Assembly (NCBI GenBank): GCA_024692165.1
Contig: JAILMY010000151.1
Span: forward strand, 1 to 34,987
Direction: 5' to 3'
DNA: 34,987 nucleotides
Source: Butyrivibrio sp.
GTDB lineage: Bacteria; Bacillota; Clostridia; Lachnospirales; Lachnospiraceae
The translations under genes and the position numbers were made by a program. This document shows, piece by piece, positions 26,347 through 30,507 of the stretch (positions within the stretch are counted from its first letter, which is position 1; the number at the start of each line of letters is the position of its first letter). The notes beneath the pieces were generated by a model that was given only the letters and a program-made list of their open reading frames with translations, was not told where the DNA came from and did not search any database.

Positions 26347-26574
26347 ATGAAAGAATTAGTTGAAGTTATCGCCAAGGCTCTTGTAGACAATCCGGGAGAG
26401 GTTGTTGTTACAGAGAAAACCGAAGGGCGTAATATCGTAATCGAGCTTCATGTAGCTCCATCAGACATGGGCAAAGTAATTGGCAAGCAGGGTCGTATTG
26501 CTAAGGCAATCCGTGCCGTTGTCAAGGCAGCATCAACACGTGAGAATCTCAAGGTTGATGTGGAAATTGTGTAA
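26347..26574 (+). CDS. khpA: KH-domain RNA-binding protein KhpA (YlqC)
   Basis: The 75-residue protein is a single KH domain with the loop GKVIGKQGRIAKAIR (about 43-57). In Firmicutes KhpA pairs with KhpB (Jag/EloR) and influences cell elongation and RNA levels. Its place between rpsP and the rimM/trmD pair is conserved. GGGGGG lies before the ATG. The stop is followed after one base by the first copy of a structured intergenic repeat. Confidence 0.93.
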   Translation: MKELVEVIAKALVDNPGEVVVTEKTEGRNIVIELHVAPSDMGKVIGKQGRIAKAIRAVVKAASTRENLKVDVEIV

Positions 26575-26575
26575 T

Positions 26576-26745
26576 ATGATATAGGGATTCAAAGTCAAGC
26601 ACTGCTGTGCTTGCACAAAGCAGTGCTTGACCTTGAAGACCGAACAAACATGAGGAAAAAAGATACGCGAAGAATGAGCGGATCGATTTCCGAATGTTTG
26701 TAGGATTGCGAAAGTTTTGAAAAAACTTAGCAATCCGTATATCAT
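26576..26745 (+). repeat. Structured intergenic repeat, copy 1 (170 nt)
   Basis: The element starts one base after the khpA stop. Its ends pair (ATGATATA at 26576-26583 with TATATCAT at 26738-26745). Inside are three hairpins: 26594-26606 with 26619-26631 (13 bp, perfect); 26644-26651 with 26694-26701, enclosing 26662-26668 with 26678-26684; and 26703-26709 with 26730-26736. A second copy lies at 30261-30424 in the same orientation. Loops and joining strands are the same in both copies, while stems differ in a mostly compensatory way. The termini resemble a TA-targeting, MITE- or ERIC-like element. An RNA-level function is possible. Confidence 0.85.
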
Positions 26746-26762
26746 ATATGTATAGATTTTAT

Positions 26763-26798
26763 AGGTCGGATAAGCATTTTGTTTATTCGACCTTTTTT
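26763..26798 (+). terminator. Terminator-like hairpin before trmD
   Basis: An 11-bp stem with one G-T pair (26763-26773 with 26783-26793) runs into six T residues, 13 bases before the trmD ATG. It may attenuate transcription from rpsP-khpA into trmD-rimM. Confidence 0.75.
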
Positions 26799-29121: not shown

Positions 29122-30264
29122 ATGAAAAAGAAAATTTTCGCAGTATTAGTGGCTGCAACAATGGTGGCTTCATCACTCGTTGGATGTGGTGGATCAACAG
29201 GTGCATCAACAGGTTCTTCAGCTGAAATGAAGGTTGCAATGGTAACTGACTATGGCGATATCACAGACCAGTCTTTCAACCAGTCAACATACGAAGCTTG
29301 TAAGGCTTTTGGTGATGCCAACAAGGTTGACTTCACATACTACAAGCCCGAAGGCGACTCAGATGCTGAGCGTGTTGCCATGATCGATAAGGCTGTAGCT
29401 GATGGTTATAACGTAGTTGTTATGCCTGGTTACGCTTTCGCTGGCGCTATCAAAGAGACAGCAGAGACATATCCTGATGTTAAGTTCGTTGCTCTTGACG
29501 TTTCTGAGTATGACCTTGAGGGTGATTCTTCAGATTTCAACAACAAGACATTTGACAATGTATTCTCAGCAGTTTACCAGGAAGAGCTTCCAGGATACAT
29601 GGCTGGTTACGCTGCAGTAAAGATGGGCTACACAAAGCTTGGTTTCCTTGGTGGTATGGCAGTTCCTGCAGTTATCCGTTATGGTTATGGTTTCGTTCAG
29701 GGTGCTGACGCTGCAGCTGCAGAGCTTGGCGCTGATGTTGAGATCAACTATGCTTATGGTAACCAGTTCTACGGTGATTCAGATATCACAGCTGCTATGG
29801 ATACATGGTATCAGGGCGGCACAGAAGTTGTATTTGCTTGCGGTGGCGGTATCTTCTCATCAGCTGCTGAGGCTGCTGCTAAGACAGGCGGCAAGGTAAT
29901 CGGTGTTGACGTTGACCAGAAGGCTACAATCGATGGAGCTTATGGTGATGGCATGACAATTACTTCTGCTATGAAGGGCCTTCAGGCTACAGTAAACACG
30001 CTTCTTTCAGCTATCAGAGATGGCAAGTGGGATTCTTATGCAGGACAGATCCAGAACCTTGGTCTTGTATCTGCTGATGATATGTCACAGAACTATGTAG
30101 GTCTTGCTGATTCTACAGTTTGGACAGATGGCTTCAAGGAGGCTGATTATAAGGCACTTGTTGCTGATATGGTAAACGGCAAGGTTTCAGTTTCTAACGA
30201 TTCTTCTGCTGAGCAGCCTTCAGCTACAACAGCTAAGATCAACTTCCAGGGAAATATCAAATGA
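29122..30264 (+). CDS. BMP-family nucleoside-binding lipoprotein (PnrA/NupN-like)
   Basis: The 380-residue precursor has a lipoprotein signal peptide with lipobox LVGC and the lipidated Cys22. The mature part is a Bmp/PnrA-type periplasmic-binding fold: MKVAMVTDYGDITDQSFNQ at the start, VMPGYAFAGAIKETAE, and GGGIFSSAAEAA with GVDVDQ further on. Such proteins bind purine or pyrimidine nucleosides and deliver them to NupOPQ-type permeases. ACGGAGGG precedes the ATG. The codon bias is that of a highly expressed gene. Its stop codon TGA is also part of the first bases of the structured repeat copy 2, which separates it from the transporter genes. Confidence 0.93.
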   Translation: MKKKIFAVLVAATMVASSLVGCGGSTGASTGSSAEMKVAMVTDYGDITDQSFNQSTYEACKAFGDANKVDFTYYKPEGDSDAERVAMIDKAVADGYNVVVMPGYAFAGAIKETAETYPDVKFVALDVSEYDLEGDSSDFNNKTFDNVFSAVYQEELPGYMAGYAAVKMGYTKLGFLGGMAVPAVIRYGYGFVQGADAAAAELGADVEINYAYGNQFYGDSDITAAMDTWYQGGTEVVFACGGGIFSSAAEAAAKTGGKVIGVDVDQKATIDGAYGDGMTITSAMKGLQATVNTLLSAIRDGKWDSYAGQIQNLGLVSADDMSQNYVGLADSTVWTDGFKEADYKALVADMVNGKVSVSNDSSAEQPSATTAKINFQGNIK

Positions 30265-30424
30265 TATAGGGATTCAAAGTCATAAGCTGTTGTGCTTGCA
30301 CAAAACAGATTATGACCTTGAAGACCGAACAATGATGAGGAAAAAAGATATGCGAAGAATGAGTATATCGATTTCCGAATTATTGTAGGATTGCGAGAAC
30401 GAAGTGAAGCAATCCGTATATCAT
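30261..30424 (+). repeat. Structured intergenic repeat, copy 2 (164 nt)
   Basis: The element overlaps the stop codon of the BMP lipoprotein gene (ATGATATA includes the TGA at 30262-30264). The hairpin at 30279-30291 with 30304-30316 has a different sequence from copy 1 yet still pairs, with one mismatch. GATATGC and GTATATC around the conserved loop GAAGAATGA pair fully, counting one G-T, where copy 1 has GATACGC and GCGGATC. GGATTGC and GCAATCC close the last hairpin, as in copy 1, with a shorter interior. It lies between the binding protein and the ATPase, a typical place for a stability or attenuation element. Confidence 0.85.
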
Positions 30425-30507
30425 CTCATTATGACTTAAGTTACAGGGATCGGCGGATTCATAGTCTTCCGGTCCTTATCTTTAATAAGTACACGGGGGT
30501 AAAACCT

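Follow-up and report, generated by a model that had tools for sequence, protein, structure and literature searches.

The two similar intergenic elements found in a 34,987-nt stretch of Butyrivibrio sp. DNA (hereafter the window) are copies of the Rfam family RF01699 (Clostridiales-1), and this family is a mobile element. Taking all data together, we propose with a probability of roughly 0.57 that the window copies are old, tail-less copies of RF01699 as a miniature inverted-repeat mobile DNA element of the Lachnospiraceae, whose fold is chiefly a DNA fold and which was exapted at gene ends. In this way an orphan Rfam family gains an identity as a mobile element, with its boundaries corrected and probably also the molecule in which it folds. 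New in this respect are the mobility of RF01699, its 3′ tail hairpin, its near G-U-free covariation and its tail-less form at stop codons.

RF01699 copies in the window

With Rfam release 15, copy 1 scored 108.9 bits (E = 4.6e-24) and copy 2 100.3 bits (E = 9.1e-22) against a gathering score of 48, and both matches covered model positions 1-166 of 166. The preliminary description of this DNA had placed the element in no named family and suggested an Rfam search as a check; run here, this search returned a named family for both copies, an outcome that the description had listed among those refuting its view. A covariance model built in this study (R1) gave 138.4 and 134.9 bits, respectively. 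Delimited from TGATATA to TATATCA, the two copies lie on the plus strand at 26577-26744 and 30262-30423, within 1-2 nt of the limits first given (26576-26745 and 30261-30424), and they align to each other at 86.5%. The shared blocks and the pair-preserving differences in the stems, on which the element had been recognised, are visible in the sequence. Both copies are thus real, but the label 'two-copy' gives too small a number, as the genome to which the window belongs has about 18-20 copies (20 matches, of which 19 were read; L006 and L007 are perhaps one locus split by the assembly).

Copy 1 lies in the 3′ UTR of khpA (26347-26574, plus strand; Pfam PF13083, E = 6.9e-25), the stop codon TAA of which ends at 26574. 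The TGA that opens copy 2 is itself the stop codon of the upstream gene for a PnrA-like (Bmp) substrate-binding protein (29122-30264, plus strand; PF02608, E = 4.1e-32). As judged by eye, both copies are preceded by the gene end and followed by a terminator-like hairpin on the plus strand, located at 26763-26798 behind copy 1 and at 30446-30477 behind copy 2. The latter hairpin is kept in element-free relatives, and hairpins similar to the former are present, again by eye, in the element-free khpA-trmD spacers of relatives. Such spacers, 51-110 nt long and without the element, were found in 13 relatives; the 30 loci compared comprise the window, these 13, one ending early, L158 with a longer spacer, and 14 reverse-lying loci that were left out. 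For the copy 2 locus, we read 27 of 80 retrieved relatives; partial remnants persist in two that are close (L383 and L395, 93% protein identity), and the element is absent by eye in the other 25. Inspection of the flanks revealed no target duplication at either window copy and no tail at copy 1. At another locus (L009, G000 C171:1305-1494), half an element seems to enter the start of a gene that was named DnaJ-like by eye.

The fold of copy 1 is closed by P1, in which the left terminal repeat TGATATA (26577-26583) pairs with the right terminal repeat TATATCA (26738-26744), and the pairing continues 3 bp into the flanks. Enclosed on the same plus strand are the long hairpin P2 with a gCTTGc loop (26584-26641), the stem sequence of which varies greatly among copies, P3 with tandem G.A mismatches (TGAG/CGAA; 26644-26701) and P4 (GGATTGC...GCAATCC; 26703-26736). 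In folding, copy 1 beats all 200 shuffles with both DNA energies (z -11.0) and RNA energies (z -11.05), and copy 2 reaches a z of -7.45 as DNA. RNA energies give nearly the same fold as DNA energies for copy 1, and its DNA fold energy is -42.8 for the minus strand versus -46.7 for the plus strand. Because both the two strands and the two molecules come out so close, energies do not decide which molecule is folded. It had also been proposed that AATCC in P4 switches between two partners, one of them the GGATT at the 5′ end. We rejected this idea, since the two arms of P4 change in concert (GGATT/AATCC to GAATT/AATTC), and the 5′ GGATT is usually replaced in other copies, for instance by GGTGTC or GGGTC.

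Complete copies and their mobility

In Rfam, RF01699 is typed as 'Gene; sRNA', and the model ends before the tail hairpin described here. The main-text table of Weinberg 2010 (PMC2864571) lists it as a probable RNA, probably not cis-regulatory, from Clostridiales and human gut, and this table makes no mention of mobility. In the open-licence literature, supplements apart, we found no description of RF01699 as mobile. Complete copies consist of the Rfam core followed by a 3′ tail hairpin, begin with TGA and end with TCA. Their terminal inverted repeats, one of the criteria for a MITE, are about 18 bp long (TGANNTAGGTGTCAAAAG and relatives), with TGA..GTCAAAAG at both ends; the window copies retain only TGATATA/TATATCA.

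This layout is seen in G041 (Butyrivibrio fibrisolvens), where 11 copies with an identical 155-nt core stand in unrelated places. Every one of them runs on into a 35-nt hairpin that is absent from the Rfam model, and in 11 of 11 the 5-6 bases in front of the element recur after the TCA end. Many other genera have the same arrangement of core and tail with different sequences, the tails being mostly 27-35 nt long. Of 126 distinct copies, 56 have a tail that ends in TCN and is followed by an exact duplication of 5-6 bp; when the flanks were shuffled 500 times, such copies numbered 3.8 on average and 12 at most (126 of 131 copies entered the count after duplicates and short flanks were dropped). 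This count is preferable to an earlier listing of duplications, the 'untailed' class of which includes tails missed by the pattern. The target of complete copies is AT-rich, roughly ATWWTA. RF01699 therefore resembles MITEs in its terminal inverted repeats, its target duplication and its dispersed near-identical copies. The initial guess, a mobile ERIC/MITE-like element with an RNA function, was right about mobility, for which the duplications and inverted ends speak, while the pair statistics presented below do not support its RNA function.

A covariance-model search of Butyrivibrio and other Lachnospiraceae, as the preliminary description had advised, indeed yielded further copies. RF01699 was found in all 61 Butyrivibrio genomes searched, that of the window included (59 above the cut-off), with at least 1-32 matches per genome, and in 161 of 299 genomes from a sample of the family, 130 of which exceed the cut-off. 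Copy numbers are lower bounds, resting on at most 38 scored candidates per genome in the genus survey and at most 9 in the family survey. Outside the Lachnospiraceae, no match was obtained in the phylum sample (4 of 299 genomes match, all within the family) or in 14 control genomes. The copies analysed come mostly from the best-scoring matches (the best ~150 of each survey), so weak copies are under-sampled.

Complete copies would be mobilised in trans by a transposase, with a 5-6 bp duplication of the AT-rich target. By eye, no autonomous partner with the same ends was seen around transposase genes when up to 3 mismatches were allowed in G041 and up to 2 in G587; this search covered two transposase families (rve and DDE_Tnp_1) in three genomes, and end patterns in five. 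Where the ends of rve and DDE_Tnp_1 elements were readable, they differ from those of RF01699. One pair of ends 1.2 kb apart in G041 turned out to be a complete copy plus a remnant. The same genome harbours a 3.0-kb rve transposon at two loci (L281 and L284) with TGTTGT...ACAACA ends unrelated to RF01699; as judged by eye, each of the two has a 5-bp duplication.

Three 39-bp palindromes in G041 consist of the two ends alone, namely L112 (C1:1147299-1147337; target duplication tcata), L320 (C2:234123-234161; tattaa) and L129 (C1:2630773-2630811; no duplication). Since core-less palindromes have duplications, the core is not needed for movement. Among the one-ended remnants of this genome (L114-L128 and L130; 20 regions read), 12 keep the 3′ end and one (L127) only the 5′ end. 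We considered 5′-truncation by retrotransposition for these and regard ordinary deletion as likelier, because the few junctions checked by eye had no duplication, whereas complete copies have one of 5-6 bp. In one case (L128, C1:330000-336500), a gene that looks cysteine-desulfurase-like by eye seems to read through the remnant with its end at C1:333207, which would then encode the last residues. Other unusual arrangements were a tandem-like cluster of three partial copies downstream of a full one (L263, G625 C1:2401540-2404697) and a variant of about 241 nt in G041 (L111, L113 and L119), with additional sequence in the P4 region that is able to fold into a hairpin.

Several known repeats invite comparison. 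In the Bacillus cereus group, bcr1 is an element whose RNA fold is conserved. The repeats bcr1-bcr3 are described as small, intergenic, MITE-like and mobile, and as often located in UTRs (PMC6542083, PMC3446304), which resembles RF01699; their mobility is tied to a TTTAT motif (PMC6542083, PMC3446304). We compared them by description, and matches to RF01699 are confined to its own family in the phylum sample and the 14 controls. REP/BIME sequences of enterobacteria share with RF01699 that they are palindromic, mobile in trans and often located just past stop codons, and they are moved by Y1 enzymes without target duplication. REPs measure 20-40 bp (PMC3733652). RF01699 is unlike them, as its cores are about 150-180 nt long and complete copies duplicate 5-6 bp. 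A further likeness is to the attC sites of integrons, which fold as single-stranded DNA, lie sense-oriented at the 3′ ends of genes and have the consensus GTTRRRY at one end. For the other end the consensus is RYYYAAC, and an attC-like DNA motif, OTH-22-1, was once picked up by an RNA-finding pipeline (PMC8632094). By eye, the terminal repeats of RF01699 are unlike the attC consensus, and its neighbours are ordinary operon genes.

Covariation and loops of the fold

To count base pairs, copies were aligned to the covariance model built here and 75 copies under 90% identity were kept. The helices covary almost always as complete Watson-Crick pairs; for example, columns 219-345 hold 43 GC, 23 AT, 7 CG and 2 TA pairs and no G-U or A-C. 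RF01699, SRP RNA and 6S RNA (for each of the latter two, 30 sequences of the same bacterial family) were run through a common pipeline of MAFFT and RNAalifold with identical column rules. G-U made up 1.0% of standard pairs in RF01699 (22 G-U and 8 A-C; 75 copies), and samples of 30 sequences gave G-U:A-C ratios of 8:6, 5:9 and 4:3. In SRP RNA the share was 21.3% (207:4) and in 6S RNA 20.0% (234:8). The terminator of Bmp genes, homologous to the neighbour of copy 2, reached 22.6% (37:2, 10 columns) in a set of 18 distinct sequences from 39 loci tried, about four of which look like other hairpins. Thus, G-U is only 1-3 times as frequent as A-C in RF01699, compared to 18-52 times in these three controls. 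Over the whole covariance model we counted 78 G-U, 63 A-C and 311 other mismatches, or 59:39 after removal of the column pair 21-86 (19 G-U, 24 A-C), which was judged to be misaligned.

Pairwise comparisons of sequences at least 70% alike gave a similar picture. Double changes related to steps between Watson-Crick and G-U pairs as 1460:144 in RF01699, 2125:1526 in SRP RNA and 481:953 in 6S RNA, and transversions made up 42%, 17% and 23% of the double changes, respectively. Because G-U intermediates are nearly absent and G-U is so little above A-C, the pair-preserving changes do not show an RNA function. More generally, such changes alone do not prove an RNA; it is the G-U share and the G-U:A-C ratio that separate RF01699 from SRP, 6S and the neighbouring terminator. 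Two observations temper this. Steps from Watson-Crick to G-U still exceed those to A-C in RF01699 (144:31), less so than in SRP (1526:62) or 6S (953:72), which softens the DNA reading. In addition, when 138 terminator-like hairpins were scanned in a cruder way, the G-U:A-C ratio was 46:27 in 1383 pairs (3.3% G-U), so that strong, fast-evolving hairpins can also be poor in G-U.

Arm-matching changes can also arise when the polymerase switches template between the arms of an inverted repeat (PMC8604942, PMC3820800). The copies could accordingly be neutral MITE relics without function, their stems paired only through such homogenisation of the arms and their orientation reflecting where insertions are tolerated. 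The many double changes with few G-U steps and frequent transversions fit this explanation. So does pairing into the unique flanks, found at -1/+1 in 89% versus 46% after shuffling and at -2/+2 in 66% versus 31%, as would be predicted by template switching that extends the arms (PMC3820800). We nevertheless regard it as improbable, since template switching does not produce conserved unpaired features such as the G.A mismatches, the junction bases and the recurrent GNA loops.

These unpaired features are well conserved. GNA triloops close P4 in 39 of the 62 copies parsed and P3 in 14 of 64, while another 23 of the 64 P3 loops are GNNA (11 of 75 P3 and 13 of 75 P4 loops were not parsed). Only 4 of the 23 are GNRA and 19 are GNYA; with a pyrimidine as third base, the latter are not of the RNA GNRA type. 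The parser required GA on both sides of P3, so the YGAR/YGAR pattern in 64 of 64 is partly by construction; independently of the parser, an alignment of 60 sequences shows no variation in the G and A of the left mismatch and at least 90% conservation of those on the right. The junction bases are invariant or nearly so in the aligned copies. The loops agree with motifs that stabilise DNA, among them GNNA and CNNG tetraloops and, for the tandem mismatches, the YGAR rule. GNA triloops are said, in the title of a 1997 work by Yoshizawa, to form extraordinarily stable DNA minihairpins; this work and that of Hirao 1994 on GNA loops are cited in PMC11101458. Loop chemistry was used in the same manner for the STAXI motif by Weinberg 2010 (PMC2864571), arguing there for RNA rather than DNA.

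Pair statistics and loops together point to DNA as the folded molecule, with template switching as an aid or even the driving force. They speak for folding of the DNA, or for hairpin-templated mutation, rather than for an RNA fold, and the conserved fold of RF01699 is likely to be chiefly a DNA fold. In the single-stranded state, for instance on the lagging strand, the Rfam strand would fold into hairpins. Full Watson-Crick pairs would be restored by selection on the DNA hairpin, by template switching between its arms or by both, and the loops and tandem G.A mismatches would be held through selection on the fold. A more specific proposal, which we make only tentatively, is that RF01699 works as folded DNA, its hairpins forming on one strand with sheared G.A pairs and with loops that are hyperstable as DNA and its arms being rewritten time and again as whole Watson-Crick pairs, and is retained at the stop codons of Butyrivibrio housekeeping genes as a DNA-level element in replication or supercoiling. 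By eye from the coordinates, the copies showed no clear bias in orientation to the replication strand. If the folded-DNA proposal is true, comparing G-U with A-C would be a simple test for structured-DNA families hidden in RNA databases.

Tail-less copies at gene ends

The tail-less set comprises genus G305 and those Butyrivibrio copies, excluding G041 and G057, in which no tail was recognised; it may include a few tailed copies. A sense stop codon lies within -12 to +8 nt of the first base in 50 of 62 tail-less copies, compared to an antisense stop in 3 (62 remained of 65 after removal of three at contig edges, and open frames were taken as genes from 80 codons upwards). Of 41 Butyrivibrio tail-less copies with both neighbours, 35 have both genes in sense (++) and one has both in antisense (--). 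In the window genome the left neighbour is sense to the element in 18 of 18 copies that have one, and one further copy lies at a contig edge. Gene orientation is random around tailed copies of other genera (++ 11, -- 10, -+ 8, +- 8); tailed Butyrivibrio copies are few (++ 2, -- 6, +- 2). Among the products of neighbouring genes, as assigned with Pfam, are KhpA, spermidine synthase, the ribosomal proteins S12, L7/L12, S20 and S15, a GroES-type chaperonin, FliE and a PLP enzyme. For four gene sets the element stands at the same place in different species.

The position of tail-less copies at sense stops suggests that they have a retained role at gene ends. Both the 50:3 sense bias and the sites shared between species argue against functionless relics. 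A sense position at stop codons is also what a function at the mRNA level predicts, which makes it the best argument left for RNA. The tail-less form could then be a functional 3′-UTR RNA, such as an mRNA stabiliser or an element of decay or translation termination, derived from the mobile element or ancestral to it, with a fold selected as RNA. Besides the position and orientation at conserved genes and the positions common to different species, this would agree with the listing as a probable RNA in the main-text table of Weinberg 2010 (PMC2864571), with the excess of Watson-Crick to G-U over Watson-Crick to A-C steps in the tail-less set (170:73), and with the description of B. cereus bcr1-bcr3 as often located in UTRs or between operon genes, bcr3 correlating with mRNA decay (PMC3446304). 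We consider it unlikely, as G-U and A-C are equally rare in the tail-less set (16:16 beside 1561 Watson-Crick cells), while G-U is far above A-C in SRP, 6S and the copy 2 terminator, and as the GNNA tetraloops of P3 are mostly GNYA rather than GNRA (19 to 4). In the exapted DNA element that we favour, tail-less copies would have been retained at gene ends with a role that either the DNA hairpin or the mRNA would mediate.

In three copies of the tail-less set (L076, L077 and L257), the core itself is directly flanked by an exact duplication, which may reflect either movement of the core only or a later loss of the tail. With its hairpins at shared gene positions, RF01699 also provides a natural set for studying how arms are rewritten. 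In the spermidine synthase pair, for example, identity is 84.5% over the last 400 nt of the gene and 78.7% in the element; here the middles of the P2 arms were replaced, whereas the loop was kept.
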